DNA of 64,000 nt from Phytohabitans maris (lineage in GTDB: Bacteria > Actinomycetota > Actinomycetes > Mycobacteriales > Micromonosporaceae): NCBI RefSeq assembly GCF_031085175.1, contig NZ_JAVHUY010000008.1, forward strand, positions 62,001 through 126,000. Reading direction: 5' to 3'. Shown piece by piece: positions 1 through 17,043 of this stretch. The position numbers and the translations under genes were made by a program. A model generated the notes under the pieces. The model saw only the letters and a program-made list of their open reading frames with translations, had not been told where the DNA came from and did no database searches. How positions within the stretch are numbered: position 1 is the stretch's first letter; every line of letters begins with the position of its first letter.

Positions 1-2526
1 ACACTTGTCGAGCCGACCGGCGTGCCCCAGGGGAGCGGCGGGCGGTTGCGGATCTGGGCGGGCGTGCCGGCGCGCAACCCGACGTTCACCGGTCGCGAGA
101 CGCTCCTGCTCGCGCTGCACCGGGCGCTGGAGCGGCGGTCCAAGGCCTCGGTGCTGCCGCGTGCGCTGCACGGCACGGGCGGTGTCGGAAAGACGCAGCT
201 CGCGGCGGAGTTCGCGTATCGGTACGCCGACCGCTACGACATCGTCTGGTGGATTCCCGCCGAGCAGCAGTCGATGGTCGTGCAGTCGCTGCACGAGCTG
301 GGGCGCCACCTCGGCACACCGCAGACCGCGGACCTCCAGCAGACCGCGAGCCTGGTGCTGGAGGAGCTGGCCAGCAGCCCCCTGCGCTGGCTACTGGTCT
401 ACGACAACGCCAACGAGCCGGAGGACGTCGCGCGGCTGATGCCGGTGCGCGGCGGCCACGTCATCCTGACCTCCCGCAACCAGACGTGGTCGGAGGTCTG
501 GGACCCGGTCCAGGTCGGCGTCTTCAGCCGGCCGGAGAGCGTCGAGCTGGTGCGGCGGCGGCGGGAGAACGTCTCGCCGGCCGACGCCGACCGGCTCGCG
601 GCCCGGCTCGGCGATCTGCCGCTCGCGCTGGACCAGGCGGTGTCCTGCCAGGTGGCGACCGGCATGTCGGTCGGCGACTACCTCGCCGAGCTGGAGGAGC
701 ACGCGCGGGAGCTGGCGGCGGCCGGCTCGCCGCGCACCACGCTCGTCGCGGTCGTGCGGCTGACGATACGGCGGCTGCGGGTGCACGCGCCGGCGGTCGC
801 CGAGCTGCTGGAGCTGTTCGCGTTCCTCGGCGCGGAGCCGATCTCGGGCGGCCTGCTACGCCGGGGCCGGGAGGCGCGTGTCTCGCCGGCGCTGGGTCGC
901 GCGCTTCGCGAGCAGATCGCCTGGGACCGGGCGATCCGCGACCTGCGCCGCTACGGCCTGGCCAAGGTCGACCCGGACCAGCGGATCCAGATGCACCGGC
1001 TCTTCCAGGGGGTGCTGCGGGACGAGCTCAAGCCGGACGTCGCCCGCCGCGGCCGGGCCAACGTGCAGCACCTGCTCGCGTCGGCCAACCCGGGGTACCC
1101 GCTGGACGAGGCGACCTGGCCGGTCCACGCCGAGATCGGCCCGCACATCGGCCCGGCCGGCCTGGTCGACTCCGAGCTGCTCGACGCCCGCCGTGTCGTG
1201 CTCGACCAGGTCCGCTACCTCAACGTCATCGGCGACCTGGAGGGTTGCCGGCGCCTGGGCGAGATGGTGGTGGACGCGTGGTCGAAGGTCGAGGGGGTGC
1301 GGGGGCTCGGACCGGACGGCGAGATGACCCTCCGCGCCTCCCTGTACCTTTCGATCACGTTGCGCCATCTGGGTTTCAACGAGCGGGCCCGGAGCCTCAC
1401 CGAGAACGCGCTCGAACGGTTCCGGGCGAACTCCGAGTTCGGTCCGGATCACGAGCACACGCTGTACGCCGCGTCGGTGCTCGCGCCGAACCTGCGGGTC
1501 GCCGGCCTCTTCCGCGAGGCGCTGGCGTTGGACGAGGAGAACGTGGCGCGGCACCGGGCGGTCTTCGGAGACGAGGACGAGGAGACGGTGAACGCCCGGA
1601 GCAACCTCGCGGTCAACCTGCGGCTGCTCGGCGACTTCGCCGGCGCCCACGCGATCGACAGCGAGGCGGCGCGGATCTGGCAGCAGGTGGTGGGCGACAA
1701 CGACAACCGGCTGCTCTTCGTCCAGGCCAATCTCGCCCGCGACCTGTACGGCCTGGGGCGCTACGCCGAGGCGCTGAGGCTCCTGCGGGGCATCCTGCCG
1801 CCGTTTCGCCAGCAGTTGGGCACGCGGCATCCGTACGTGATGCTGGCCGACCGCACTCTCGCGATCGCGCTGCGGAAGGTCGGCCGGTACGACGAGGCGC
1901 TGGTCGTCGCCGCCGAGCACGACCGCGACAGCGAGCGGCGCTACGGGCCCCAGCACGAGCGCGCGCTCGCCGCCGCGATGACCCATGCCAATACGCTCCG
2001 GGTGGCCGGCGACCTGGCCGAGGCGCACCGCCGTACGGACGAGGCGATGGACCGGTACCTGCTCGTCTTCGGCGAGGGCCACCCGCTGACCCTGGCCGCG
2101 GCGGTCAACCACGCGATCGTGCTACGCGGGGTGCGTGAGCGGGCGCGGGCCCGGGACCTGGACGAACGCACCTACGCCCGGATGCGCGAGGTGCTCGGCC
2201 CCGAGCACGGCTACACGCTCTGCGCCGCGAGCGGCCTCGCGAACGACCTCGCGCTGGCCGGCGAGACCGAGGCGGCGTGGCGGCTGTCCGCGCAGACCCT
2301 GCGGATCTCGCGGCGCGCGCGGGGGCAGCCGCATCCGTACACGCTGGCCTGTGCGGTGAACGCGGCGATCGACACCATCGCGATCGGCAGGCGCGGCGAG
2401 GGCCAGGCATCACTGGACGACGCGGTGGCGGCGCTCGCCGGCGTGCTGGGCGCCGACCATCCCGAAACCCTCGCGGCCCGCGAGGGCCACCGCGCCGAGT
2501 CCGACATCGAGCCGAGTCCGACCTAG
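1..2526 (+). CDS. NB-ARC/TPR protein of the cyclophane RiPP locus, 5' end outside the window
   Basis: The frame is open from base 1, so the N terminus is probably missing; the first internal start is a GTG at 22. The visible part opens with the segment WAGVPARNPTFTGRE, typical of actinobacterial STAND proteins. A Walker A motif GGVGKTQ (about nt 180-200) and a Walker B-like WLLVYDNA (about nt 388-411) mark an NB-ARC ATPase. The second half is a run of TPR repeats of the NPGY/FGPDHEHTL type. Known relatives accompany FxSxx-COOH and other radical-SAM cyclophane RiPP systems (possibly the family I recall as HaaT). It converges on the precursor genes, 18 bp away, and ends in SDIEPSPT, close to the CDIEPPPV end of the other TPR protein here. 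Its role, in sensing or regulation, is inferred. Confidence 0.85.
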   Translation, partial: TLVEPTGVPQGSGGRLRIWAGVPARNPTFTGRETLLLALHRALERRSKASVLPRALHGTGGVGKTQLAAEFAYRYADRYDIVWWIPAEQQSMVVQSLHELGRHLGTPQTADLQQTASLVLEELASSPLRWLLVYDNANEPEDVARLMPVRGGHVILTSRNQTWSEVWDPVQVGVFSRPESVELVRRRRENVSPADADRLAARLGDLPLALDQAVSCQVATGMSVGDYLAELEEHARELAAAGSPRTTLVAVVRLTIRRLRVHAPAVAELLELFAFLGAEPISGGLLRRGREARVSPALGRALREQIAWDRAIRDLRRYGLAKVDPDQRIQMHRLFQGVLRDELKPDVARRGRANVQHLLASANPGYPLDEATWPVHAEIGPHIGPAGLVDSELLDARRVVLDQVRYLNVIGDLEGCRRLGEMVVDAWSKVEGVRGLGPDGEMTLRASLYLSITLRHLGFNERARSLTENALERFRANSEFGPDHEHTLYAASVLAPNLRVAGLFREALALDEENVARHRAVFGDEDEETVNARSNLAVNLRLLGDFAGAHAIDSEAARIWQQVVGDNDNRLLFVQANLARDLYGLGRYAEALRLLRGILPPFRQQLGTRHPYVMLADRTLAIALRKVGRYDEALVVAAEHDRDSERRYGPQHERALAAAMTHANTLRVAGDLAEAHRRTDEAMDRYLLVFGEGHPLTLAAAVNHAIVLRGVRERARARDLDERTYARMREVLGPEHGYTLCAASGLANDLALAGETEAAWRLSAQTLRISRRARGQPHPYTLACAVNAAIDTIAIGRRGEGQASLDDAVAALAGVLGADHPETLAAREGHRAESDIEPSPT

Positions 2527-2544: not shown

Positions 2545-2739
2545 CTATTTGCGCGCCGTGGTGTTGCTCGCGGTGGTGTTGTGGGCCGCGTAAACCTCGT
2601 CAGGTCGAGACATGTCGGTCAGCAGTTGCTCCAGACACGAATTCAGCGCCGAGTCCGTGCTGTTGAGAACGACATCGAGACGAATTGTGCGCAGGTCCAG
2701 GATTCTCGACGTGTCCCACGAGCCACTGTCGTAGGGCAT
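2545..2739 (-). CDS. RiPP precursor peptide B, YAAHNTT core
   Basis: This 64-residue peptide has a good ribosome site (GAAGGGGA, about 6 nt before the ATG). Residues 29-56 align with residues 34-61 of the neighbouring peptide A: both read DSAL..C...LL.DMSRPxExYAAHxxT. I read this as a precursor whose leader is the variable first half and whose core is the YAAHNTT segment (Tyr50, His53, Thr55 and Thr56) with a nine-residue tail. Its place directly downstream of a radical SAM/SPASM maturase and a HExxH protein supports a cyclophane-type RiPP. It does not carry the FxSxx-COOH ending. The maturation chemistry is inferred; an aromatic-to-side-chain crosslink starting at Tyr50 or His53 is the most likely kind. 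Confidence 0.75.
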   Translation of the reverse strand: MPYDSGSWDTSRILDLRTIRLDVVLNSTDSALNSCLEQLLTDMSRPDEVYAAHNTTASNTTARK

Positions 2740-2781
2740 CTCATTTCCCCTTCCCAGGGTCTTGTCTCCCAGGGCGGAGGA

Positions 2782-3060
2782 TCACTCCATGGACAAGATA
2801 TCGGGCCGGTCGGGAGAAGCCGTCTTCGCCACGCCGGACTCGGCCGAGTCGTCCGACAAAAATTCGACAGGGTCTGGGGTGCTGCCATGGGCGGCGTAGT
2901 TTTCGGCGGGTCGACTCATGTCCCGCAGCAGACGCTGGACGCAGGCTGCGAGGGCCGAATCGTCTGTGGCGAAGAGTTCACCGAGCGCCTGTTTGCTGAG
3001 GTCAGGGAGGAGGTACGCGGACGCCTCGTCCGCTGCGGCGGAGTGCTCTTCTTCATGCAT
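2782..3060 (-). CDS. RiPP precursor peptide A, YAAHGST core with long tail
   Basis: The chosen ATG at 3060 has AAAGG seven bases upstream and gives 92 residues. An in-frame ATG at 3090 would give 102 but has no clear ribosome site. The peptide is acidic and helical at its start, then carries DDSALAACVQRLLRDMSRP followed by ENYAAHGST (Tyr55, His58, Ser60, Thr61), matching peptide B almost residue for residue. Unlike B it continues about 31 residues past the core, which may be a cleaved follower. It is 42 bp upstream of peptide B, both on the minus strand after the HExxH gene. Cys40 is shared with B (Cys35). Its function as RiPP substrate is inferred from size, paralogy and position. Confidence 0.75.
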   Translation of the reverse strand: MHEEEHSAAADEASAYLLPDLSKQALGELFATDDSALAACVQRLLRDMSRPAENYAAHGSTPDPVEFLSDDSAESGVAKTASPDRPDILSME

Positions 3061-3167
3061 GCTCATGCCTTTCAGCCGCAGCGACGACATAGGATCCTAG
3101 GTGGTGTCCGTCCTGTGGCGTCACGCGCCCACCCGGCTTGTGTGAGCCTATAGCCTCGTGGTTCAGT

Positions 3168-4466
3168 TCATGAGGCATTCGGATTGTCGCGGCGCCATTC
3201 GTTTCGCCGCCGGTCGAGGATTCTCAGGGCGACATCCGTGGCCGACCTCGGCACTCTTTCCGCGCTCAACGCGTCCACCGCCTGCCGTAGTCCTGCGGTG
3301 AACCGCCGGCCCTTCGTCGTTAGCTCTGCCGAACCCTCCAGCGCGGTGAGGCCGACCGCGACCTGCTCCCGCACGATTGCGAACTCGCGCGTCGCCGACT
3401 CCTTGAGCCCAGGAGCCGACCGCAGAGCCCGCCACGTGTCCGCGACGCCCAGAAAGGCGTAGACCCCCTGGATGAGGCCGCCCGTCGGCCGGGCGTCGGC
3501 GCGCCAGGGGGCGAAATGCCGTTCCTCCCCGTCCGGCCGGTAGAGGGGTGCGACGTCGAGCAGTGCGCTCAGTTTGGAGTGCTGGAACTCGTGAACGAGG
3601 GTGACGGCCAGATCGGCGCCGGACGTGGGCGGGGTGAGACCCAGAATGCCGAACGAGTCGCGAGCGGTCCCACTGCGGGCGACGCCGTCCCCCGGGCTCA
3701 CCAGCGGGACCACGGAACGCAGCCCCGCGGTCAACTCGGCGGCGCGCTCAGGATGCCACTGGGCGAGCAGTTGCCACGCCTCGGTGAAACACTCCTGCCA
3801 GTGGCGTACCTCCTCCACGCGCAGCCGGCCGGCGGCGGGTACGTGATAGGCGCTCCGGTACGGGTTGCCGTCCTCGATCGCCAGCGACCCGGTCAGGCCG
3901 CCGTGGTGGGCGACCAGCCTGCGCAGGATCCGCCACCGCGGGTTGTCCGCGCCAACTGTCACGGAGGTCGCGGCATCGATCACCCTGGCCCGCCCACCGG
4001 AGACCGTCACGACGGCGGGGCCGTTCGACCCCAGCACCGCGCCGCCGAGGGTCGGGAGCGTGACGGTGCCGAAGAGCGCTCGCGTCCGCACCTCGGCGTC
4101 CTCGCCGGCTCGGACCGCCGCGGCTGCCGCCAGCGCCCCGAACTGCGCGAGTTCGGCGGTCAGCGGCACCGCATGCCCGTTGTGGTCGGCGCGGATCCGC
4201 CGGGTTGTACTTACCGCCCAAGCACCGACCATGGGATCGCTCAACAAATCGGCGACGGCACGCTCGTCACGCCGTTCCGCTCGCATCAACACCGCCACGG
4301 CTTCGCCACACTCCGGGGCGGAGGAGTACCTCTCTTTGAGGAACCGAAGCAGCATCAGGTGCTTGCTATGTTGGACAGCCGCCAGCTGCCGCACCGCGAC
4401 CGGTCCGCCGAGTCCCGACGCCAGGTCGGCGAAGCGGTCGGGCGGCAGTTGATGGTATGAGATCAC
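3168..4466 (-). CDS. HExxH-motif putative peptide beta-hydroxylase
   Basis: A 432-residue protein with a GTG start that overlaps the TGA of the radical SAM gene (GTGA), so the two are translationally coupled. The diagnostic motif is H292-E-F-Q-H296 followed by SKLSALLDVAPLY, as in the HEXXH motif-containing peptide-modification family. Members of this family have been described as alpha-ketoglutarate-dependent, iron-using peptide beta-hydroxylases rather than proteases. It is a soluble protein without signal peptide or membrane segment. Being between the maturase and the two precursor genes, it probably hydroxylates a core residue before or after cyclophane formation. That substrate assignment is inference; the family assignment is fairly secure. 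Confidence 0.82.
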   Translation of the reverse strand: MISYHQLPPDRFADLASGLGGPVAVRQLAAVQHSKHLMLLRFLKERYSSAPECGEAVAVLMRAERRDERAVADLLSDPMVGAWAVSTTRRIRADHNGHAVPLTAELAQFGALAAAAAVRAGEDAEVRTRALFGTVTLPTLGGAVLGSNGPAVVTVSGGRARVIDAATSVTVGADNPRWRILRRLVAHHGGLTGSLAIEDGNPYRSAYHVPAAGRLRVEEVRHWQECFTEAWQLLAQWHPERAAELTAGLRSVVPLVSPGDGVARSGTARDSFGILGLTPPTSGADLAVTLVHEFQHSKLSALLDVAPLYRPDGEERHFAPWRADARPTGGLIQGVYAFLGVADTWRALRSAPGLKESATREFAIVREQVAVGLTALEGSAELTTKGRRFTAGLRQAVDALSAERVPRSATDVALRILDRRRNEWRRDNPNAS

Positions 4467-5707
4467 TGGTAGGTCCCTAGGCGGTCGTGCACGTCGGCGG
4501 CGACGCGTCCCATGATGTGCCGGATGAGTCGGTACATGTCGCCGCAGTAGACCGTGGGATTGCGGAACCCATCACCGGCCCGATAGCGGTGGGCGTAGTG
4601 TCCGCCGCCGCAGACCGCTCGGATCGAGCAGTGCAGGCAGGTTTCGGAAAGAGCGTCGACGCCTATCTGCCTGGCCACCACGCCGGGGTGTTCGAGCGCC
4701 CCGTCCAAAGGGTCGGCGAAAACCGTCAAGCCGGTGGCGCAAGCGCCAGCGTATGCCGATTTCAGCGAGTCCACCTGCTCGATCGCGCCGTCCGTCTCGA
4801 CCACGACGACAGCCACCGGGCTCAGTCCGACCTGCTCCGAACGGCTGGTACCCCCCAGAGCGAGTTTCACGACGTCTTCGAAGAGCCGGACCCTGGTCTG
4901 CAGAGGGCGCGCGTCGTACCAGCGGTCGAAGACGGCCACCAGCCAGTCGCCATGCGGGGTGCTGCTGGCGTCGGCGGCGCGACGTGGCGGGTTCGACCAG
5001 TTGGCGTGCGGCAGCAGGAAGTCGATCGACGGCGGCCCGTACCCGAGCAGGGCCTCGTAGCAGGCGACGGGCTCCGCCGCCGGGTCGACGGTGCAGAGCA
5101 GCCCGGCGAAGGCCGGACGGTACCGGGGAGTGCCCAGCAACCGGAGCGCCCGCTCCACCGCCGCGAAGCTGCTCTGCCCGTTGGCGTGCCGGCGGTGGCG
5201 GTCGTTGTCGGCTCGCGTGCCGTCCAGGCTCACTCCGATCGCGACCCCACGCGCGCTCAGCCGGTCGAGCATCGGGGCGTCGAGCAGCAGCCCGTTCGTC
5301 TGGACCTGAACGTCGAGCCGGCAGAGGCCGTCGAGCGTGGCGCGGAAGTCGTCCACGAGCTGGGCCAGAAGGTCTGGGCCGGCGAGCAGCGGCTCGCCGC
5401 CGTGCAGGATGAGCCGCATCGAGGAAAGCCCGTGGGTGCGGGCGTGCTGGGCCATCCGGCTGGCCGTGGCGAGCCAGGTCTCCCGCGCCATGAGGACGGG
5501 GCGGTCGCGCCAGGACTGGTCGGCCATCTCGTAGACGTAGCAGTAGGCACAGGACAGGTTGCACCGCTGGTGCACCTTCAGGACGACATCCCGAAACGGC
5601 GTCGGCCGCCAGCCGCCGGCGCGCAGTGCGGCGACGTCGAGCGCTGATCCCGGCCACACGTCCGGGTTTTTCGGCGCAGGCAGCCCCGGCACCCGCTCAG
5701 GAGGCAT
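4463..5707 (-). CDS. radical SAM/SPASM cyclophane-forming peptide maturase, FxsB type
   Basis: The 414-residue enzyme carries the radical SAM cluster motif C49-NLS-C53-AY-C56 and a GGEP segment for SAM binding. Its C terminus has the SPASM-type cysteines (TCLHC, VCGGGHYAHRY, YCGDM) expected to bind auxiliary iron-sulfur clusters. This arrangement matches the FxsB-like maturases that join an aromatic side chain to a beta carbon two residues on (triceptides). The ATG at 5707 follows a GGGAGGGG sequence by about 9 bases and excludes an in-frame upstream shadow of the TPR gene. It is the second gene of the operon, 77 bp after the HTH/NB-ARC/TPR gene. Substrates are almost certainly the two YAAH peptides. 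Confidence 0.88.
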   Translation of the reverse strand: MPPERVPGLPAPKNPDVWPGSALDVAALRAGGWRPTPFRDVVLKVHQRCNLSCAYCYVYEMADQSWRDRPVLMARETWLATASRMAQHARTHGLSSMRLILHGGEPLLAGPDLLAQLVDDFRATLDGLCRLDVQVQTNGLLLDAPMLDRLSARGVAIGVSLDGTRADNDRHRRHANGQSSFAAVERALRLLGTPRYRPAFAGLLCTVDPAAEPVACYEALLGYGPPSIDFLLPHANWSNPPRRAADASSTPHGDWLVAVFDRWYDARPLQTRVRLFEDVVKLALGGTSRSEQVGLSPVAVVVVETDGAIEQVDSLKSAYAGACATGLTVFADPLDGALEHPGVVARQIGVDALSETCLHCSIRAVCGGGHYAHRYRAGDGFRNPTVYCGDMYRLIRHIMGRVAADVHDRLGTYQ

Positions 5708-5784
5708 GGGTTGGGGCCCCTCCCTCGCGAACGGCCGAATAGGACAGTCCACATCGTAGTCGTCGCCGCGGCGGGATGAGGGTT

Positions 5785-8625
5785 TTACACAGGCGGTGGC
5801 TCGATGTCGCACTCGCCGGGGCGGCCTTCGTTGGCGGCCGCCACCAACGGGTGATGGGGGCCGAGGAGTCGCCGCAGCTCGGCGAGGCTCGAGCCGAGCA
5901 GGGTCGAGCCCGGGTCGTCCGCCGAGAGCAGGCCGAGGTTGAGCGCACACGTTAGCGTCTCGGGGTGGTGCTCGCCGCGGACACGCCGCGCGTCGTCGAG
6001 GGTCCGGGTGAGCAGGCGGCGCGCGCTCTCCTCGTCGTGGGCGAGGACCAGGTCGTTGCCGAGACCCACCGCGGCCGCGATCGTGTACGGGTGGTCCTGG
6101 CCGAGCACCTGCCGCAGTGAGTAGAAGCTGCTCTCGCCGACCTGCCTGGCTCGGCGGCGCTCGCCCATGGCGCGCAGGATGATGGCCTGGTTGGCGGCGG
6201 CGGCGAGCGTCAGCGGGTTTCGTTCGCCGAAGTGGCGGCGGTAGCGGTCCATCGCGTCGGTGGCCACGTTCCAGGCGCGGCTCACCTCGTCCGCCGCGCA
6301 GAGGGTGTTGGCGTAGGTCATCATCGCGGCGAGGCTCAGCTCGTGGTCGGCGCCGACGTGTCCCTGGCTCACCAGGTACAGCCGGCGCCCCTCCTCCAGC
6401 GCCGCCGTGACCTGGCCGGTCTTGCGCAGGCCGAGCACGATCGTGCGCCAGGCGCTGAGCACGAGCGGGTGCCGGTCGCCGAGCCGTTCGCGGTGGGCCT
6501 GCCAGGCGGAGCGCTGCAGCTCCAGGGCGTTCGCGTACTCGCCCAGGCCGTAGAGGTCGCGGGCCAGGTTGGACAGGGACAGCAGCGTGCGCTGGTCGTC
6601 CGGGCCGAGCCGGCGGCGGCGGGACTCGGCGAGGTCGGCGTCGATGTCGTACGCCGCCCGGAAGTCGCCGGCGGCCCGTAGGCTGGCGCCCAGATTGTTG
6701 CGGGCCAGCATGGTCTCGCGGTGGTCCGCGCCGCGGATCCGGCTGTACCGCTCGACCCGGTCCAGGTCCAGCCGGAGCGCCTCGCCGTACCGGCCGAAGA
6801 CGCGGTGCAGCACGGCCAGGGTGTCGGCGATGTCGAGGGTGGCCGGGTGGTCGGGGCCGTACCCGGGGTTGGCCAGCAGCCGCTTCCACGCCTCGTCGAC
6901 GAGCCGGCGGGATTCGCCGTAGCGGCCGAGCGCGTACAGGGCGGCGACGAGCCGGCGCAGGCAGGCGAAGACCCGTACGTCCTCCGCGTCGCCCTGCCGC
7001 GTCCAGGTGGTCCACGCTTCGTCGCTGAGGCGGCGGCTGCCGTCGAAGTCGCCGATCTCGTAGAGGTACGTCGCCTGGTGCACCACCACCTCGCGGGCGT
7101 CCGGGGCGGCGGTCTCGATGACCCGGGCGGGGCGTAGATGGGGGCCGATCTGGGCGTGCATGTCCCAGGTCAGCGGGTCGGAGGGGTTGCCGGGGTTGGC
7201 GGCGCCGAGCAGGCGGCGGGCGTTGTCGAAGGCGCGTTCGCGGGCGTAGGCGGGCAGCGTGTCGCGGACGATCGCCTGCACCAGGCGGTGCACCCGCAGG
7301 GCCTGGCCGCCGTCGAGGACCTTGACCAGGCCGTACCGGCGCAGCAGCCGGACCGCCTCGTCGAGCAGGTCGGGCTGGTTGAGCAGGCGGCCCAGGGGCG
7401 GGGCGATGCGGGTGCCGGCGCGGCGCAGCAGGGAGAGGGTGATCGGCTCGGAGCCCAGGCAGGAGAGCAGCTCCAGCAGCTGTCCGGCGGCCAGCGACTC
7501 GACCCGTACCCGGTCGGCGGCGACCGCGAACGCGGTGGCGACGGTGGCCTGGTAGTCGCCGGGCTGGACGGCGGCGAGCAGGCCGACCGCGCGCTCGTCG
7601 AGCTGGCGCAGGTACTCCCGGACCGGTGTCCTGGTGGCGGACTGCACGGCGGCCACCTGCTCCAGCGCGAGCGGCAGGTCGCCGAGGCGTTCGGCGAGCT
7701 GGTCGGCCTCGTCGAAGTCGATGTCGTGGCCCCGCGCGCGGAGCAGCTCGATGCTCTCCTCGCGGGCGAGGACGTCCACCTCGACCGCGCGGCCCTCGTC
7801 GACCCAGGCGGCGTCGCGGGTGGTGACGACGACGTGGCCGCCGGAGGCGGGGACCAGGGTGGCGAGCTCCTCCGGCGGTCCGGCGTTGTCGAGGACGAGC
7901 AGCCACCGCACGCCGCCGCGCTCCAGGCGGGTCAGCACGGTGGTCACGGTCTGCGCCATGTCGAGGCTGGTCGGCCAGTCCTGCCGCTCGCCGAGCGCGG
8001 CCAGCGACGCGGTCGCCCGCGAGCGGTCGTCGGCGGCGATCCACCAGACCAGGTCGTACGCGTCGGCGTGGCGGTGGGCGTACTCGACGGCGAGCTGGGT
8101 CTTGCCGACGCCGCCGAGGCCGTACAGGATCAGCGGTTGCCACGGCTCGCCGAGCAGCCCGCGGCGGATCGCCTGGAGCAGCCCTTCGCGGCCGGTGAAG
8201 CCGATGTTTCGGTGCGGGGCCAGACCCATCGGCGTGATGCCGGCCGGCGGCTGGGGGTCCGGCGGCTCGGCGGGCCGAGGCTCGGCGTGCGGCGGCTCGG
8301 CCGGCGGCGGCGCAAGAGGGGCGGCCGGTGGCGTGCCGTCCGGGGCCAGCTGGTCGGAGGCGGCCAGCCAGAGCGCGTGGAACCGGCGCACCTCCTCGTC
8401 CTGGTCCGGGCGGTGGACGGCCATGGCGGCCAGGCAGCGCACCACGCACTCCACTTTGGACCAGCGGGCCAGCCCGTCGCCGCGCAGGATCGCGCTGACC
8501 GTCTCGTGGCTGACGGTGTCGGGCATGTGGTTGAGCCGGCGGATCTCGCCGCTGATCCGGCGGTACGACGGGCGGCCGGCGGCGCGGTGCAGCAGCTGAA
8601 GTTCGGCGACGAGGTCTCGCGTCAC
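5785..8625 (-). CDS. HTH/NB-ARC/TPR STAND protein, first gene of the RiPP operon
   Basis: This 946-residue protein has a small N-terminal helix-turn-helix-like region (about 1-75, ISGEI...SHETVSAILRGDG), a proline/alanine/glutamate-rich linker (about 105-150), then FTGRE and an NB-ARC ATPase with Walker A GLGGVGKTQ and Walker B WLLVLDN. From about residue 480 to the end it consists of TPR repeats (GPDHPATL, GADHRET, GDRHPLV, GEHHPET units). Proteins with this layout are STAND switches, and close relatives sit beside FxsB-type maturases. It leads the operon that makes the maturase, hydroxylase and precursors. It ends CDIEPPPV, like the TPR protein at the left edge. A role in sensing a trigger or controlling the peptide is inferred, not shown. 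Confidence 0.87.
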   Translation of the reverse strand: MTRDLVAELQLLHRAAGRPSYRRISGEIRRLNHMPDTVSHETVSAILRGDGLARWSKVECVVRCLAAMAVHRPDQDEEVRRFHALWLAASDQLAPDGTPPAAPLAPPPAEPPHAEPRPAEPPDPQPPAGITPMGLAPHRNIGFTGREGLLQAIRRGLLGEPWQPLILYGLGGVGKTQLAVEYAHRHADAYDLVWWIAADDRSRATASLAALGERQDWPTSLDMAQTVTTVLTRLERGGVRWLLVLDNAGPPEELATLVPASGGHVVVTTRDAAWVDEGRAVEVDVLAREESIELLRARGHDIDFDEADQLAERLGDLPLALEQVAAVQSATRTPVREYLRQLDERAVGLLAAVQPGDYQATVATAFAVAADRVRVESLAAGQLLELLSCLGSEPITLSLLRRAGTRIAPPLGRLLNQPDLLDEAVRLLRRYGLVKVLDGGQALRVHRLVQAIVRDTLPAYARERAFDNARRLLGAANPGNPSDPLTWDMHAQIGPHLRPARVIETAAPDAREVVVHQATYLYEIGDFDGSRRLSDEAWTTWTRQGDAEDVRVFACLRRLVAALYALGRYGESRRLVDEAWKRLLANPGYGPDHPATLDIADTLAVLHRVFGRYGEALRLDLDRVERYSRIRGADHRETMLARNNLGASLRAAGDFRAAYDIDADLAESRRRRLGPDDQRTLLSLSNLARDLYGLGEYANALELQRSAWQAHRERLGDRHPLVLSAWRTIVLGLRKTGQVTAALEEGRRLYLVSQGHVGADHELSLAAMMTYANTLCAADEVSRAWNVATDAMDRYRRHFGERNPLTLAAAANQAIILRAMGERRRARQVGESSFYSLRQVLGQDHPYTIAAAVGLGNDLVLAHDEESARRLLTRTLDDARRVRGEHHPETLTCALNLGLLSADDPGSTLLGSSLAELRRLLGPHHPLVAAANEGRPGECDIEPPPV

Positions 8626-8848
8626 CCGCCACGCTCCCGGTCCACATATCGCGCTTCACGACGGTCGCCAGATGCCAACTAACGTCAATTTCTGGCAGAG
8701 ACAGCATTCCATACCGGTGCGGTGCCAGGAACACCTTGTAAACCTTTGAACACCACCGGCAGAAACTGATCTCGGCGTGCGGACATGGGCCACCATCGAA
8801 ATCAGAGGACCTTCTCAGAGGGGAGCGCGTGATGCAGGGGAACCCACG
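8626..8848. promoter_or_regulatory. divergent promoter region between RiPP operon and CATRA gene
   Basis: This gap separates the start of the minus-strand RiPP operon from the plus-strand conflict gene. It is less GC-rich than its surroundings (for example around 8680-8770) and should hold both promoters. No clear -35/-10 pair or operator palindrome could be assigned by eye. Confidence 0.45.
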
Positions 8849-11287
8849 ATGATACCGAGCGATAACGCGACCCCGGCACGCGTGGATCCGTTAGTCCCGC
8901 CCGCTCCGGCCTGCGAATATCACGTACAGAACGGGTTCGAGAATCCGCTGAATATCCGAGCGGTTCCGGCATTGGATCTGCAAGTTGCAGTTACCCGTTT
9001 CCCATCCCGTGATCGGCTGGAACGGTGGGTCCGGCCGGCCGCCTCCGGCAATGCCAAGCGGTTCCGGCATCCGCGCCGGGAACGGAAGAATAGGCGGTTC
9101 GTCCCGCGCGGGATGTCGCGCTGGTTTCCCACCGTGAACGAGGACGCGACGGCGGCCCTGCAGGCGCTCGACCCGGTCCGGCTCACGCCGGGTGAACCGC
9201 CCGCCGAGGAGGTGCCCGGCGGGTCGAGGCTGCGGGCCAACATGCTCGTGCACCGGCTCACGCTCGCCCCGTCCGCCCGCCGCCGGGGCGCCGCGGGGCG
9301 GACCGTCGAGCCGCCGCCGCCCCGCGCCACCGACGCCGCGGTCCGCCAGGAGCTGGTGGTGCACGCGTTCGTGCCGCTCGACGGCCCGGGGCGCGACCCG
9401 GCGTACCAGCAGGTCCGTCGATTGTGGACGGCGGCGCGCGAGCTGTTGGGCGCGACCGAGACGATCGACGGCGGTGGCCCGCCCACCGACCTGCCGGACG
9501 GGTGCGCGTTGCTCGCCGGTCCGGTGGTCGCCGCCCAGCAGCGCGCGGACCGGCGGGTGCAGGTGGTCCTGCGCCGCGAGCACGACGTGCTCAGCCTGTC
9601 GATCGGATGGCGGGCCGACCCGGACGACCCGCCGGCCACCTGGGCGCAATGGGAGGAGCAGTGGGCCGCCGTGGCCGCCGGCGGCACGGACGAGCTGATC
9701 GGCCTGGTGCGGCTCTACGTCGGTACCCAGCCGGCCGCCCGGCGCGGCGGACCGCCGGCGCGGCCCCCGGTCGAGGTGGCCGCGGAGCTGGCGGCGGGCC
9801 TCGCCGCCGAGGGCAGGACACTGTGGAACGACGGGGTGCTGGTCGACGGGTGCGTGCTGTGGGAGCTGCCGCCGTTCGGTGGCAACGCCCGGCGGGAGCG
9901 GCGGATCCTCGCGCTGGCCACGCCCGACCGCGAGCGGGCGATGAGCACGCTGACCTGGTGGCGCGGGGTGGCGGAGCTGGCGCCGCTGCCCCGGTACCTG
10001 CTCGACGCGGCCAAGGTCCGCTACCAGCTGCGGGTCCGGGAGGCCGCCGAGGCCTCGCTGCGGGCGGCGCTCACCGGCCACGCCACCGCGGCCGAGATGG
10101 CCGTCCTGCTGACCCGCCTCGCCGACACCCGCCTCACCGTCGAGATCGCCCGGTCCAACATGGACGCCGTGCTCCGCGCGATCGACCCGTGGGGCGGCTC
10201 GCCGACCGGCGGGCTCTTCGCCGACGACCGGGCCTGCGCCGCCTGGGTGGAGTCGCGGCTGGCCGACGACGTCCGGTACATGAAGAACGCGCTCCGGCGG
10301 GCCCAGCACGTCGCCGACCGCGGCCGCCCGGTCACCGCGCGGGTGCCGCGGCGGCCGGTGATCGGGCTGGTCACCGCGCTGCCCGAGGAGTTCGCCGCGA
10401 TGGCCTCGCTGGTCGACGGCGGGCAGGAGCGGTCGGTCGCCGGCGACCCCGCGGAGTACGTCTGCGGGACCATCCCGAGCGCGCGTCCCGGCCGGCCGCA
10501 CGCGGTGGTGCTGACGCTGCTCACCGAGACCGGTACCAACTGGGCGGCCACCGCCGTCGCCAACATGCTGCGCAGCTTCGAGTCGGTCGACCAGGTGCTG
10601 ATGGTCGGCATCGCGGCCGGGGTGCCGGCGCCCGGCGACCCGCACCGGCACGTACGGCTCGGCGACGTCGTCGTCTCGACCTGGGGGATCGTCGACTACG
10701 ACCACGTCGTCGACCGGCCCGGCGGGGCCACGCTGCGGCAGGGCTTTCCGCAGCCCTCCGCGCTGCTGGCCCACCGGGTGAAAGGCTTGATGGCGGCGGA
10801 GCTGCGGGGGCGGCGGCCGTGGGAGGGGGAGCTGGCCCGGGTGCTCGCCCAGTTGCCCGGCTTCGCCCGGCCGGAGGCGGTCACCGACCGGCTGTACACG
10901 CACGACGGCCCGGGCGCCCGGGAGGTGTGGCATCCCGACCCGGCCGTGTCCGGGCACCGCGACGGGATGCCGAGAGTCCACGAAGGACGGATCGGCTCGG
11001 CCAACCGCTCGCTGCGCAACAGCGCCCGCCGCGACGCGCTGGCCCGCGAGTACGACCTGCGGGCGATCGAGATGGAGGGCTCGGGGATCGGGTCGTCGGC
11101 GTTCGCGGGTGGGCGGGACTGGCTGGTGGTCCGCGGCATCAGCGACTACGGCGACCGGCGGCTGGGCCGGCTGTGGCGCCCGTACGCGTCGGCGGTCGCG
11201 GCCGCGTACACCCGCGCGCTGCTGTGCCGCTGCCCGCCGATCACGCCGCACGGCGGCCGCACCGGCGACGTCGACTCGGCGGCGTAG
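8849..11287 (+). CDS. CATRA-like conflict protein with C-terminal nucleoside phosphorylase domain
   Basis: With the ATG at 8849 (AGGGGA seven bases upstream) the product is 812 residues. Codon use is poor until about 9112, so an ATG there is a real alternative start. Residues about 165-460 begin LVVHAFVPLDGPGRDP and resemble the CATRA (caspase/TPR-repeat-associated) region known from actinobacterial conflict systems. From about 500 comes a phosphorylase-superfamily (PNP/MTA-SAH nucleosidase) domain: VIGLVTALPEEF, VLMVGIAAGVP, a GD-VV-S strand, the AIEMEGSGIGS purine-binding segment and the RGISDYGD ending. Such domains act as nucleotide- or nucleoside-degrading effectors in NTP-dependent conflict systems. 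It is divergent from the RiPP operon. The CATRA assignment rests on remembered family similarity. Confidence 0.78.
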   Translation: MIPSDNATPARVDPLVPPAPACEYHVQNGFENPLNIRAVPALDLQVAVTRFPSRDRLERWVRPAASGNAKRFRHPRRERKNRRFVPRGMSRWFPTVNEDATAALQALDPVRLTPGEPPAEEVPGGSRLRANMLVHRLTLAPSARRRGAAGRTVEPPPPRATDAAVRQELVVHAFVPLDGPGRDPAYQQVRRLWTAARELLGATETIDGGGPPTDLPDGCALLAGPVVAAQQRADRRVQVVLRREHDVLSLSIGWRADPDDPPATWAQWEEQWAAVAAGGTDELIGLVRLYVGTQPAARRGGPPARPPVEVAAELAAGLAAEGRTLWNDGVLVDGCVLWELPPFGGNARRERRILALATPDRERAMSTLTWWRGVAELAPLPRYLLDAAKVRYQLRVREAAEASLRAALTGHATAAEMAVLLTRLADTRLTVEIARSNMDAVLRAIDPWGGSPTGGLFADDRACAAWVESRLADDVRYMKNALRRAQHVADRGRPVTARVPRRPVIGLVTALPEEFAAMASLVDGGQERSVAGDPAEYVCGTIPSARPGRPHAVVLTLLTETGTNWAATAVANMLRSFESVDQVLMVGIAAGVPAPGDPHRHVRLGDVVVSTWGIVDYDHVVDRPGGATLRQGFPQPSALLAHRVKGLMAAELRGRRPWEGELARVLAQLPGFARPEAVTDRLYTHDGPGAREVWHPDPAVSGHRDGMPRVHEGRIGSANRSLRNSARRDALAREYDLRAIEMEGSGIGSSAFAGGRDWLVVRGISDYGDRRLGRLWRPYASAVAAAYTRALLCRCPPITPHGGRTGDVDSAA

Positions 11288-12198: not shown

Positions 12199-15100
12199 TC
12201 AGCACTTGATGGGGGAGAGGGTGAAGTCTTCCACCGTCGGCGTGCTGGTGTTGATCCTCGTCTGGCGCGTCTGCGGCTTCCAGCCGTCCTTCGCGACGAT
12301 CAACGTGAGCGGGTTGTTGCGGCGGTCGAGCCAGTAGGCGTACTTGCCCTGGGCGTCGGTGGCGAACGTCAGCGAGCTCGCCCACGAGTCCACCTGTACG
12401 ACCGCGCCCGCGATCGGCGCGGTGGCGCCGTCGCAGCCCTTGCCGGTGACGGTGCCCAGGAGCTTGCCCCAGGTCGTCGGCGGCTGCACCTCGAGGGTCA
12501 GGTCGACCGGCGGCACGGTGTACGGGGTGTTCTCGCCGATGGCGATCCCGCCCTTGTACGTGCCCGGCTGGTCGACGTTCGCCGTCATCGTGACGGTGAC
12601 CGTGACCGCCTCACCCGGCGCCAGCGCCGCCTCGGTCTTGTCGATCGAGAACCAGCTGACGTCGGCGCCGCCCTCGGCGCACTCCTCGAAGCCGGGCAGC
12701 GCCTCGCTGTCCACCGTGGAGTTGAAGTTGCCCGAGGAACCGCCGATCTTGTAGAAGCCGCACGCCGCGCCGCCGCGGTACCGGGCGGTGTTGGCGTTCG
12801 GCAGGGCCGACCAGGCGCTGGTCGCGGGGTCGTACGCGAAGCCGGCGTTGGTGACCGCGCCGGCCTGCACGCCGCCGACGACCAGCAGCTTGCCGTTGGC
12901 CACCGCGAACGAGCTCGCCCAGCTGTCGGCCGGCGCGTCCGCGATCGGGGTCCAGCTGCCCGCGCCGGGGTCGAAGGCGTAGCTGGCCTTCTGGGCCGCC
13001 ACGCCGTCGTTGCCGCCGGTGCAGTAGAGGACACCGCCGATGCCGCCACACGAGGCGAACGCGACCGACTTCGGGTAGTCGGGCAGCGTCTCCCAGGTGT
13101 CGGTGGCCGGGTCGTACCGGACCACGTCGTTGGACATCGGCGTGCAGCCGGAGGTGGTGCAGCCACCGACCGCGTACAGCTTGCCGTCGACGACCGCCTG
13201 TCCGGCCGCCGAGCGCGGCGCCGGGTTGTCGGCCTTCTCCGTCCAGGTGTTCGCGGCCGGGTCGTACGACCAGGTGGTGCCGTCCGGGCCCGCGGAGGCC
13301 CAGCCGCCGGTGGCGATGATCTTCCCGCCGACGACGCCCACGGTCAGCGCGTTGCGCGCCGCCGGCAGGTCGGCGATCGCCGACCAGGTCTGCGCGACCG
13401 GGTCGTAGACGTAGCTCTTCGCCGTGGAGGCAGAACCGCTGCCGCCGGCGATCGAGTAAACCTTGCCGTCCAGCGTGACCACCCGGTTGTCCATCACGTT
13501 CGACGGGTAGTCGGTGATGTCGGTCCACGGCGCGGCCTGCGGGCCGGTCGCCGCCGCACCCACCGCGGTGGAGCCCATCGAGGCGGCCGCCGCGAACGAG
13601 GTCGGCACGTCGAGCCGCTGCTCGGGCGCGCCGGCCGCACCGAGGATCTGCTCCCGGGTCATCCGCGAGCCGTCGGCGCGCAGGAGCGAGAAGCCACCGT
13701 CCTGCTCACCGAACTTGACGTCCACCGGCGCGCCGCCGGTGTTGGTCACCGTGAACGTCTTGGTGACCTTGCCGGAGGGGATCCGCGCGTTGCCGCTCAG
13801 CGAGCCCGGCTTGACCGTGAGCTTGCCGGCCGCCAGCTGGAAGCTGGTCGAGGTGGTCCAGTCCGCCTCGACGTCGACGTCCTTGCCCTGGCTGACGTAG
13901 CTGCCACCCTTGGCGGTGAAGCCGTGGGTGCCGGTCAGCGACGAGAACAGCCAGAAGAAGCCGTCGGGCAGCCCCGGGTCGTCCGGCGTCGCGGCGCTGA
14001 CCGCCGACTCGGCCGGCTTGTCGTCGCTGGTGACCGTGGCGCCGTTGACGTACCCGTTGTCGTTGGCGTCGCGGACGTGGCCGACGACCAGGCCGCCGTT
14101 GCTCGGCACGCAGGTGACCTGGCTGCCGATCAGGACGTTGTCGACCTCCCACCACCACTCGAACGAGGCGTCGTAGTAGTGGAACCGCACCTGCACCTGG
14201 GCCTGGCCGGCGGCCTGCGGGATCGGGATCTCGGTGACCCGCGGTCCGCGTACGTTGGCCGCCTGCCGGAGCACGTTCGTCCAGGTGGCGCCGGCGTCGA
14301 GGCTGAGGTCGACGTCGGCCCGGTCGCTGCCGAGCCAGCGGAAGTCCTGGTTGAACCGGATCACCGGCGCGGTGACCGCGGTCAGGTCCACCACCGGGCT
14401 GACCAGCGAGGTGTCCTGCGAGTTGCCGCTGCCGTAGGCGTCGCTGTCGATCATGGCGAAGCCGCCGGTGCCACCGGTCAGGTTGCCCCGGTTGCCGTCG
14501 TCGGTGAACTTCCAGACCTGGCCCGTGCCGGCGTGGTCGACGACCGTCCAGCCGGCCGGCGCCGTCGTACCGTCGAAGGTCTGGTAGACGCCGTCCGAGC
14601 CGTACTCGTAGCCCGGCGCGGTCGAGCAGGACTCGGCCGACGCCGGTACCGCGACGTTGTCGACGACGTTCCGGGCGCCGACCGTGACCTCCTTGGTGAC
14701 GGTCTGGTAGCCCGGGTACTGCGGGACGTACGTCAGCGTGTACGTCGCGTTCGCCGGCAGCGAGAGGCTGTAGCGGCCGTTGGCCGGGTTGGTGTAGTCG
14801 GCGGCGCCCGAGGGGCCGGCGACCGACACCTTCGCGTACAGCGGCCAGCCGTGCCCGGAGCCGTCGGTGACCGAGCCGCTGACCGAGACCTTCGGCTGCG
14901 CGTCGAGCGCGACGGCGAGGGTCGTGGTCTGGTTGGTGGTCACCGTGGCCGGCACGGTCTTGGACTGGTACCCGAAGAGCGTGACGGCGACCTGGTAGTC
15001 GCCGGCCGGCACCAGCGAGGAGAACTTGCCGTCGCTGCCCGTGGTGAGCTGGCGGTCCGCCGCGCCGGTCAGCGCGACGTCGACGCCGGCGAGCGGGCCG

Positions 15101-16596
15101 CCGGTGGCCGCGTCCGTCACGGTGCCGGCGAGCGTGCCGTTGTCACCGATCGGGGCGGCGTTGAGGAGCGCGAGCGCGTCCAGCCGCCCTTCGCCCCACA
15201 CGTTGTTGTCGTCCTCGGTGCCACCGCACTGGGCGTCGAGCTTGTCCACGGCGGTGTCGTTGAGCAGCTGGCGGGTCGCGGTGATCTGGCCGACCAGGCT
15301 GGGCGCCGCCGACCAGAGCAGGGCGACGGTACCGGCGAGGTGCGGCGAGGCCATCGAGGTGCCGTTGGCGCTGCCGTACGCGTTGCCCGGCAGGCTCGAG
15401 CGCACGTTCACGCCCGGCGCCGAGATGTTCGGCTTGATCTCGCCGTCCTGCCCGGCGCCGCGGCCGGAGAAGCTGGCGATGTTGTTGTTCACGTCGTACG
15501 CGCCGACGGAGTAGTTGGCGATCCGGCTACCGGGGGAGCCGCTGGTCTGGCAGGCGGAACCGCTGTTGCCGTTGGACCAGGAGCCGAAGATGCCGGAGGC
15601 CTCCCAGGCCAGCGTCACGTCCTCCATGAACGGGTCGTTGGAGGGCAGGCGCGAGCCCCACGAGTTGTTGATGACGTTGGGGCGCTTGCTCGCGTCCGGG
15701 TTCTGGCCGTTGAGGTCGCGCGGCTGGAGCATCCACTGGCCGGAGTTGATCAGCGCGGCGTCGCTCGGGCAGCAGCCGTTCGCCGCGATCCACTTCACCT
15801 CGGGCGCGACGCCGATCTGGTTGGCGCCGTCGAGGCCGGCCATCGTGCCCATCGTGTGCGTGCCGTGGCCGTCCGCGTCACAGGGCGCCGCGGCGCAGGT
15901 GCCGGCCGCGTTGAACCAGTTGTAGTTGTGGTCGAACGTCCCGTCGCCGTTGTTGCCGCGGTACGAGTTGACCAGCGCGGGGTGGTCGAACTGCACGCCG
16001 GTGTCGATGTTGGCGATCGTGATGCCGGCGCCCTTGACGCCGTACTGGGTCCACACGTCGTCGGCGTTGATGTTGGCGATGCCCCACTCGACGGCGTTCA
16101 CCGCCTTCTCGTCGGTGCCCTTGGTGACCTTCGGCACCTCGTAGGCCATCGGCGGGTACAGCCCCTCGACCTCGCCACGGGCGGCGAGGTTCTGCGCCAT
16201 GCTCTGCCCGGCGGCGCTGACCTTGATGGCGTTGGTGGCCCAGAACGCCTGGTACTTCACGCCCGCCGCGTCGAGCTCGGCCCGGACCTTGGCCTGGCTC
16301 TCCTCCGCGGTCTTCTGCAGCGCGGTCGCGACGGCGGTGCCGCGCTCGTTCCAGTCCTTGATGGCGCTGGCCTTGCCCAGGTCCGCCTTGGGCGCGAAGC
16401 GCACCCAGAGGTCAGACTCGCCCTTGGCCTCGAGCACCTTGGCCAGGTCCGGGCGGATCTTGTCGGACACCGAGCCGCCGGGCGCGGCCTGTGCGGGCGA
16501 GCCGGTAGCGGCCAGGCTGGTCGCGACGACCACCAGTGCCGCGCCCGCGCTCAGCAGAGATCTGGCCAGGCGTAGTCGGCGTGTCGGTCTCAACAT
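12199..16596 (-). CDS. secreted S8 (subtilisin-like) serine protease with Cna-like and kelch modules
   Basis: The ATG at 16596 has GGAGG eight bases upstream and yields 1465 residues beginning with a signal peptide (cleavage about AQA-AP, residue 37). An I9-like propeptide region follows, then the subtilase domain with the triad Asp198 (NIDTG), His244 (GHGTH) and Ser414 (GTSMASPH). Beyond about 490 come two carboxypeptidase-regulatory/Cna-like beta domains, a jelly-roll-like region, a third beta domain, about five kelch-type repeats (about 1015-1285, repeated VYDPVAQTWSAI-like units) and a last beta domain. The layout resembles large bacillopeptidase-F-like extracellular proteases. It ends just after a strong terminator shared with the convergent regulator. 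Substrate unknown. Confidence 0.92.
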   Translation of the reverse strand: MLRPTRRLRLARSLLSAGAALVVVATSLAATGSPAQAAPGGSVSDKIRPDLAKVLEAKGESDLWVRFAPKADLGKASAIKDWNERGTAVATALQKTAEESQAKVRAELDAAGVKYQAFWATNAIKVSAAGQSMAQNLAARGEVEGLYPPMAYEVPKVTKGTDEKAVNAVEWGIANINADDVWTQYGVKGAGITIANIDTGVQFDHPALVNSYRGNNGDGTFDHNYNWFNAAGTCAAAPCDADGHGTHTMGTMAGLDGANQIGVAPEVKWIAANGCCPSDAALINSGQWMLQPRDLNGQNPDASKRPNVINNSWGSRLPSNDPFMEDVTLAWEASGIFGSWSNGNSGSACQTSGSPGSRIANYSVGAYDVNNNIASFSGRGAGQDGEIKPNISAPGVNVRSSLPGNAYGSANGTSMASPHLAGTVALLWSAAPSLVGQITATRQLLNDTAVDKLDAQCGGTEDDNNVWGEGRLDALALLNAAPIGDNGTLAGTVTDAATGGPLAGVDVALTGAADRQLTTGSDGKFSSLVPAGDYQVAVTLFGYQSKTVPATVTTNQTTTLAVALDAQPKVSVSGSVTDGSGHGWPLYAKVSVAGPSGAADYTNPANGRYSLSLPANATYTLTYVPQYPGYQTVTKEVTVGARNVVDNVAVPASAESCSTAPGYEYGSDGVYQTFDGTTAPAGWTVVDHAGTGQVWKFTDDGNRGNLTGGTGGFAMIDSDAYGSGNSQDTSLVSPVVDLTAVTAPVIRFNQDFRWLGSDRADVDLSLDAGATWTNVLRQAANVRGPRVTEIPIPQAAGQAQVQVRFHYYDASFEWWWEVDNVLIGSQVTCVPSNGGLVVGHVRDANDNGYVNGATVTSDDKPAESAVSAATPDDPGLPDGFFWLFSSLTGTHGFTAKGGSYVSQGKDVDVEADWTTSTSFQLAAGKLTVKPGSLSGNARIPSGKVTKTFTVTNTGGAPVDVKFGEQDGGFSLLRADGSRMTREQILGAAGAPEQRLDVPTSFAAAASMGSTAVGAAATGPQAAPWTDITDYPSNVMDNRVVTLDGKVYSIAGGSGSASTAKSYVYDPVAQTWSAIADLPAARNALTVGVVGGKIIATGGWASAGPDGTTWSYDPAANTWTEKADNPAPRSAAGQAVVDGKLYAVGGCTTSGCTPMSNDVVRYDPATDTWETLPDYPKSVAFASCGGIGGVLYCTGGNDGVAAQKASYAFDPGAGSWTPIADAPADSWASSFAVANGKLLVVGGVQAGAVTNAGFAYDPATSAWSALPNANTARYRGGAACGFYKIGGSSGNFNSTVDSEALPGFEECAEGGADVSWFSIDKTEAALAPGEAVTVTVTMTANVDQPGTYKGGIAIGENTPYTVPPVDLTLEVQPPTTWGKLLGTVTGKGCDGATAPIAGAVVQVDSWASSLTFATDAQGKYAYWLDRRNNPLTLIVAKDGWKPQTRQTRINTSTPTVEDFTLSPIKC

Positions 16597-17043
16597 CGAT
16601 GCTGCCTCCCCTAGTGAGGGGCCGCCGCGCGGATCTCGCCGGTGGCCCGGTTGGACACTAAAGATCACTTGAGAGATCGATCAAGGACGCTGCGTCAGCA
16701 AACTGTCACCAAAACATCAGCACGGCGCCGACCTGCCCGATTCGCCTTGCTAGGGGGACGTGGCGTGCATATGATCCAAACGTTCAGATGAGTTGATGTT
16801 CGTACCAGGTAGTGCGCGACGGCTTCGCCGCCGCGGGCAGGGGCCCGATGGCAAGGGTCCGGTGGTTGCCCCGGTGCGGTCGGGAGCCTCGCGCGTCATC
16901 GGTCGTCGGCGTGTGGCACCGCTCGACGAACGCCCGGTCACCCGTGACCGGCCGTTTCGCGTCGTGCTCTGGAGTCGGCGATCCGGGCCTCTGGCGCTGT
17001 CCGGTCGGGGTGACGCGTGTCCATCCCGTCAGGAGGCCTCTCC
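16597..17043. promoter_or_regulatory. divergent intergenic region, about 450 bp
   Basis: No convincing gene lies here. The left part (16655-16800) is relatively AT-rich and includes the dyad CTTGAGAGATCGATCAAG, and probably holds the promoter of the protease. The right part is GC-rich and ends with the CAGGAGG ribosome site of the isomerase-like gene. Confidence 0.4.

Follow-up and report, generated by a model that had tools for sequence, protein, structure and literature searches.

Positions 2,545 to 8,625 of a 64,000-nucleotide stretch of the genome of the soil actinobacterium Phytohabitans maris (contig NZ_JAVHUY010000008.1, positions 62,001 to 126,000; the whole stretch is referred to as the window) hold an operon for cyclophane-type ribosomally synthesized and post-translationally modified peptides (RiPPs) with two precursors, an assignment that the FxsB family membership of its maturase supports. 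The locus is probably of the FxsA/FxsB (triceptide) type, with His replacing Phe as the crosslinked aromatic residue and with both the precursor and its STAND partner doubled; its peptides would be ring-closed, hydroxylated and active together with the STAND proteins. On the best reading of the sequences, the product would carry a three-residue cyclophane from His to Ser or Thr, perhaps β-hydroxylated, and would work with STAND sensors. The gene content, family memberships, conserved synteny and core alignment reported below were established directly.

The five operon genes lie on the minus strand and run from STAND1 through the maturase and HExxH genes to peptides A and B. The original prediction had described this set (a STAND protein, a radical S-adenosylmethionine (SAM)/SPASM enzyme, a HExxH protein and two small peptides), and all five open reading frames (ORFs) were found where it had placed them, with the enzyme families above their cut-offs. 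A second STAND protein of the same system, on the plus strand, had been overlooked. The genes are as follows:

5785..8625, minus strand: STAND1, first gene of the operon, an NB-ARC and TPR protein of the FxSxx-COOH system (NF040586, 790.8 bits, cut-off 300; Pfam NB-ARC and TPR)
4463..5707, minus strand: FxsB-family cyclophane-forming radical SAM/SPASM maturase (TIGR04269, 475.5 bits, cut-off 370; ChlB 9gm3, E 7e-76)
3168..4466, minus strand: α-ketoglutarate (aKG)-HExxH-type peptide β-hydroxylase, motif HEFQH (TIGR04267, 166.7 bits, cut-off 40; PDB 22nu, E 1e-44; ChlH 8s5f, E 8e-9)
2782..3066, minus strand: ORF of precursor peptide A, 94 aa (92 aa from 3060), TIGR04268 score below cut-off, precursor-profile E 2e-18, core YAAHGST at 2878-2898, long C-terminal tail
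2545..2739, minus strand: ORF of precursor peptide B, 64 aa, precursor-profile E 2e-13, core YAAHNTT at 2572-2592, followed by the eight residues ASNTTARK
22..2526, plus strand: STAND2, another NB-ARC/TPR protein of the FxSxx system, encoded convergently with the peptide genes (NF040586, 868.7 bits, cut-off 300; VMAP-M0, E 3e-8)

The maturase and HExxH genes overlap by 4 nt. A longer ORF start is possible for peptide A at 3090, and residues are numbered here from 3066; the sequence GAAAGG, 7 nt ahead of the ATG at 3060, suggests that the true start may be 3060.

The motif DMSRPxExYAAHx[ST]T is exact in both peptides (DMSRPAENYAAHGST and DMSRPDEVYAAHNTT), in agreement with the original prediction of a common DMSRPxExYAAHxxT. 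The leaders, which it had called different, are divergent yet alignable, with 33% identity between A and B. To detect such peptides elsewhere, we used a precursor profile seeded with 14 peptides and then grown through relatives. Loci were drawn from named genomes scanned with a maturase alignment (the best 80 of 116) and from other genomes of the same family (40 chosen among the best-scoring maturase places), a choice that biases the sample toward close relatives. After removal of eight stretches repeating named loci, two stretches without an FxsB maturase (L038 and L039), one in which the maturase was not found (L053) and five loci whose maturase sequence duplicated another, the set comprised 121 loci, window included. 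The closest named relatives were Phytohabitans flavus, P. suffuscus, Virgisporangium aurantiacum and Asanoa siamensis.

The profile recovered both window peptides, gave no match at E ≤ 10 among the 616 ORFs at 13-64 kb of the window, and detected at least one precursor near the maturase in 93 of the 121 loci (E < 0.01). Because the relatives' loci so often hold such a peptide and the profile is blank on those 616 ORFs, the two peptides are not chance ORFs. The original prediction had named a lack of homologous short peptides beside the maturase clade as grounds for abandoning it, and the count of 93 clearly goes the other way. Same-strand small ORFs beside maturases that lack a STAND or HExxH gene, viewed by eye at ten loci, offered nothing clear.

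Alignment of the cores places His at the Phe of FxS. We aligned 109 of 110 precursors, leaving out one with masked bases; in the column richest in Phe and His, these precursors from FxsB loci carry Phe in 90 cases and His in 19. The residue two positions further on (+2) was never Gly or Pro among 94 unique cores (Ser 46, Asn 24, Ala 13, Gln 5, Thr 4, Asp 2), which fits the requirement of a Cβ crosslink at i+2, and the +1 residue was Gly in 28 of the 94. The original prediction had marked His and the Ser or Thr two residues on as a likely modified pair, and both the alignment and the +2 composition are consistent with that pair being the site of modification. It had also held that the core resembles nothing nameable, which did not stand: the core is an FxsA core with His for Phe, the maturase is of the FxsB family, and 11 of 15 His-core peptides match TIGR04268 (FxSxx-COOH) at E ≤ 1, the best at 1.8e-8. 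Its lead toward HaaA was likewise rejected, since the His-Ala-Ala core is absent from both peptides (YAAHGST and YAAHNTT), no HaaA-named model is among the matches at E ≤ 1, and a literature search for HaaA with cyclophane was empty.

The substitution extends beyond one lineage. Besides the Micromonosporaceae clade of the window, Streptosporangium and one metagenome-assembled genome each of Actinophytocola and Streptosporangiaceae have His cores, and those outside the window's clade are PVAGHQSSV-COOH, VVSGHESSI-COOH and RYQNHGSTV-COOH. On a quick maturase tree, with support from the SH-like approximate likelihood ratio test (SH-aLRT) only, 92 labelled loci require at least four changes between Phe and His, with gain and loss indistinguishable. 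The window falls in a His-only clade of six loci (support 94); among the sister rows of this clade are three loci that each combine a His precursor with a Phe precursor. Two maturase columns, represented in the window by M97 and F121, set the His-core clade apart from 20 hand-picked Phe-core rows, a difference that may be mere descent.

The family memberships suggest a route to the product. In triceptide formation, a hydrogen is abstracted from an aliphatic residue, which then adds to an aromatic ring (passages in PMC12257519). Passages in PMC11002830 describe linkage of Phe C4 to Ser Cβ by MscB, of His C2 to Ala Cβ by HaaB and ScaB, the similar ScaB substrate being named as a His-Ala-Ala motif, and of His C2 to Arg Cβ by YhhB. 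We propose that an FxsA-like leader (approximately ...PDLSxxxLxxLxxxDDSALxxxxxRLL...) would bring each precursor to the FxsB maturase, which would take a β-hydrogen from the residue two past His, Ser62 in peptide A and Thr55 in peptide B. The Cβ of this residue would be joined to the imidazole of His60 or His53, at C2 by analogy with HaaB and ScaB, to give a three-residue cyclophane with a loss of 2 Da. The aKG-HExxH enzyme would then β-hydroxylate a ring residue, with a gain of 16 Da; a ChlH-type HExxH enzyme is described as hydroxylating Asp and His in dependence on a preinstalled cyclophane (passages in PMC12636437). The product would finally act with the two STAND ATPases as a ligand, an inhibitor or a peptide effector, in a circuit of the conflict or immunity type.

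The hydroxylation step depends on what the HExxH protein is. Its nearest solved relatives by sequence are 22nu and ChlH, its motif is intact and is kept in 89 of 89 counted homologues, and its family, now named aKG-HExxH-type peptide β-hydroxylase, agrees with the original prediction of hydroxylation as a likely second modification. An older annotation would instead have it cleave the precursors as a metallopeptidase. In Kaur et al. 2020, a zincin-like metallopeptidase is described as freeing the C-terminal peptide (passages in PMC7159879), and the HExxH enzyme PflC is proteolytic without its leader according to PMC12636437; the same source, however, describes ChlH, PflC and PosC as aKG-dependent enzymes. 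Together with the current family name, this makes peptidase activity an improbable role, and a putative hydroxylase is the reading that we follow.

A different question is whether His is the main site of crosslinking. Across the 15 His-core peptides aligned from the close clade, Tyr57, Ala58 and Ala59 do not vary (the invariance of His60 is uninformative, because these peptides were chosen for having His), and the main crosslink might therefore lie on Tyr, from its C3 to the Cβ of the second Ala of YAA, or tandem Tyr-Ala and His-Ser/Thr rings might form. Passages in PMC11002830 report that when Tyr replaces His in a ScaB substrate, the link runs from this Tyr to the Ala at i+2. Aromatic residues are enriched at -3 (30 of 94 cores) and +3 (23 of 94), with one in all at -2, -1, +1 and +2, and the core RYQNHGSTV of L101 offers a possible Tyr-Asn and His-Ser pair. 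Of the 18 unique His cores 16 have Tyr at -3, against 6 of the 76 Phe cores, an enrichment that could reflect common descent (the independent-pair test was not significant). The original prediction had singled out Tyr as a likely site. Its invariance in the close clade is in line with this, but 2 of the 18 unique His cores and 70 of the 76 Phe cores lack Tyr, whereas Phe or His is always present. Tyr is therefore less essential than was implied and is not supported as an obligatory site. Nor was there clear co-selection, as Gly stood at -1 in 4 of 30 cores with a -3 aromatic residue and in 20 of 64 without one (Fisher P = 0.08). The -3/+3 periodicity was rejected as proof of tandem rings, since cores with an aromatic residue at +3, viewed by eye, often have Gly or Pro at +5. 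We regard a main or tandem Tyr crosslink as doubtful; a second, optional ring from Tyr57 (A) or Tyr50 (B) to Ala is possible beside the predicted His-to-Ser/Thr cyclophane.

Both precursor and STAND gene are doubled at this locus, as they are in close relatives. STAND partners have been described for FxSxx systems, and Kaur et al. 2020 proposed that the processed peptides act as a toxin or signal coupled to AP-ATPase/TPR proteins (passages in PMC7159879). Counts of STAND genes and precursors (in that order) over the 121 loci were 58 for (1,1), 16 for (2,2), 12 for (2,1), 22 for (0,0), 6 for (0,1), 5 for (1,0) and one each for (2,0) and (3,2). For the pairing count we dropped L073 and L075, each with two clusters in tandem, L201, which has a masked precursor, and loci without a STAND gene or an alignable precursor. 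The remaining 84 loci comprised 16 with at least two STAND genes and two precursors, 11 with two STAND genes and one precursor, and 57 with one of each. Two precursors thus always occurred with at least two STAND genes (16 of 16) and in none of the 57 one-STAND loci. This association (Fisher P = 2e-10) is not independent of descent, as only three independent pairs were available on the starred branches and trait b was mostly the same within them; because related loci dominate the counts, pairing is suggested rather than proved. The 11 two-STAND, one-precursor loci were among 17 that were scanned more deeply (L186 standing in for its duplicate L060), and no second precursor came to light in them. 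These 11 loci led us to reject a strict rule of one STAND protein per precursor and make one-to-one pairing a hypothesis.

By eye, the +2 residue differed within all nine His-core pairs (Ser, once Thr, against Asn, Thr or Gln) and within two of seven Phe-only pairs. About two in three random pairs would differ, by a hand estimate from core frequencies, which makes the within-pair difference weak evidence. One could imagine a two-channel, peptide-licensed STAND immune switch: a single maturase would make two chemically distinct His-cyclophane peptides, one of Ser type and one of Asn/Thr/Gln type, each a dedicated ligand or inhibitor of one STAND paralogue, which in Phytohabitans would gate a CATRA-nucleosidase effector, with the same maturase also serving four orphan precursors elsewhere in the genome. 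We think it unlikely that all of this holds.

Several points weigh against the interpretation of the locus as a His-type FxsA/FxsB system acting with STAND proteins. The original prediction had proposed a hidden Markov model (HMM) search of both peptides against precursor families: peptide A reaches TIGR04268 at E 9e-4 but scores 19.4 bits, under the cut-off of 28, and peptide B has no NCBIfam match at E ≤ 1; neither has a Pfam match at E ≤ 0.1. No precursor was detected in 28 of the 121 loci. That all 109 aligned precursors carry Phe or His is partly circular, because these very peptides made up the profile used to locate the column, which was chosen for being richest in the two residues; the possible common descent of the -3 Tyr belongs here as well. 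Both window peptides carry C-terminal tails, A running on for 30 residues and B for 7 beyond the fourth residue past His, and the F-x-S-x-x C-terminus is absent from both, as the original prediction had noted. The longer tails are local to the window, because 13 of the 18 unique His cores have their C-terminus four to six residues past His (10 at exactly four residues and 3 more within two residues of that). The ring chemistry is a prediction from sequence only, and the suggested STAND interaction comes from gene neighborhood. The five operon genes include neither a leader peptidase nor an exporter, the wider neighborhood not having been searched for one, and PADLOC recognized neither the STAND proteins nor the HExxH protein as defense genes.

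The PADLOC result would also fit peptides that are exported as an antibiotic- or toxin-like natural product, with the STAND link incidental. The radical SAM-crosslinked darobactin and dynobactin are antibiotics (passages in PMC11002830), which lends this some appeal. On the other side, the five operon genes, beyond which the neighborhood was not searched, include no transporter, and a STAND gene and a precursor occur together in 87 of the 121 loci. An exported product seems to us to have little likelihood, and we favor peptides that would act with the STAND proteins.

The STAND proteins have further features of note. The open frame of STAND2 starts upstream of the window (longer frame, L204), and VMAP-M0 lies within it; a domain scan at five other loci found EAD2 in L062 and L172 and VMAP-M0 in L062 and L055. 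Divergent from STAND1 lies one more gene:

8777..11287, plus strand: CATRA-N/CATRA-C and nucleoside phosphorylase/nucleosidase-like protein (Pfam PF20269, PF20270 and PF01048; PADLOC effector PN-superfamily, E 1e-11)

This CATRA-nucleosidase neighbor exceeds 300 bits at three of the 121 loci only, the window, L054 and L055, all from Phytohabitans; a weak partial match (29 bits) occurs in the Virgisporangium locus L045. Further along (12199-16668, minus strand) lies a very large, secreted-looking protein that by eye is subtilisin-like and kelch-like. Between 2450 and 8900, a promoter scan found none and four terminator-like sites were found (1.3 in shuffles), every one within coding sequence. 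Repeats around the peptide genes were unremarkable.

Beyond the window, the same genome holds three FxsB-family enzymes above the cut-off. The His-core precursor profile matches it strongly at six places (E 7e-10 or better): the two window peptides and four orphans on contigs C5 and C67 (stretches L038 and L039). A seventh, weak match (E 0.03) lies next to the Phe-core precursor of a cluster on C45, and the eighth, at E 0.75, is probably due to chance. The orphan precursors are:

L038 8438-8602, plus strand
L039 7572-7739, minus strand
L039 14581-14760, minus strand
L039 15108-15257, minus strand

Their cores are YAAHGSTPAFRSPDL, YAARGGSPRI, YAAHGNTLDV... and YAAHGSTPANPRDL, three with YAAH and one with YAAR, and the 18-20 kb of surrounding sequence that was read showed no FxsB maturase. 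About 3.5 kb away from the C5 peptide there is a different sort of radical SAM gene, for which the best model is MoaA-like (50 bits), and the YAAR orphan is followed by a trypsin-domain protein (PF00089, L039 5871-7556).

Of 354 genomes in the window's family, 225 hold FxsB relatives at E ≤ 1e-90, and peptide A matches 34 of 300 family genomes at E ≤ 0.01, many with Phe cores. Outside the family, precursors look rare: among 396 phylum genomes, P. maris included, only two others matched, weakly (E 0.001 and 0.005), in a scan that scored just 15 candidates per genome. Eight maturases (L061, L065, L067, L166, L171, L184, L192 and L194) are 62-69% identical to that of the window and group near its clade; within about 9 kb on each side of them, no STAND, HExxH protein or FxsA-like peptide exceeded the threshold. 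In four of these genomes (L065, L166, L171 and L192), FNSAL precursors are encoded elsewhere, an arrangement suggestive of action in trans. Another eight loci (L097, L172, L173, L175, L178, L180, L181 and L202) form a related group with two STAND genes and one detected precursor, with cores such as VISAFGSF that mostly have a second aromatic residue three positions past the first.

If our interpretation is true, a widespread actinobacterial triceptide family is extended from Phe to His cores by natural substitution, and the Phe-type and His-type maturases, about 60% identical, could be used to study specificity. The role of FxSxx peptides would also become more testable, since precursor pairs beside STAND pairs suggest a ligand-receptor relation.

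Among known systems, HaaB and ScaB are similar in using His as the aromatic partner of a three-residue cyclophane (passages in PMC11002830). In the window, the motif is H-x-S/T rather than HAA, the alanines precede His, and the maturase belongs to the FxsB family; HaaB enters this comparison by description and not by sequence. YhhB, which forms Tyr-Arg and His-Arg cyclophanes (NF041707), represents the second-best family for the maturase, but the score of 346.7 bits is below the cut-off of 445 and no Arg stands at the target positions. ChlB and ChlH, fused as ChlBH, are the same two kinds of enzyme, with ChlB (9gm3) the closest solved radical SAM enzyme and 8s5f matching as well; the window genes, in contrast, are separate and overlapping, and the likeness rests on the enzymes and not on the Chl substrate. 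A literature search for YAAH with precursor peptide returned one unrelated paper, the precursor lists of Sugiyama 2022 and of Phan and Morinaka 2022 lying outside the search, and we do not claim the YAAH motif as unpublished. The closest match is the FxSxx-COOH system (FxsA, TIGR04268; FxsB, TIGR04269; FxSxx_TPR, NF040586), with which the window shares an FxsA-like leader, an FxsB maturase, a HExxH protein, an NB-ARC/TPR STAND protein and the placement of His at the F of FxS. It differs from that system in having His for Phe, two precursors with two STAND paralogues, C-terminal tails, and precursors that score under the TIGR04268 cut-off, and we place it as a variant of the FxsA/FxsB kind.

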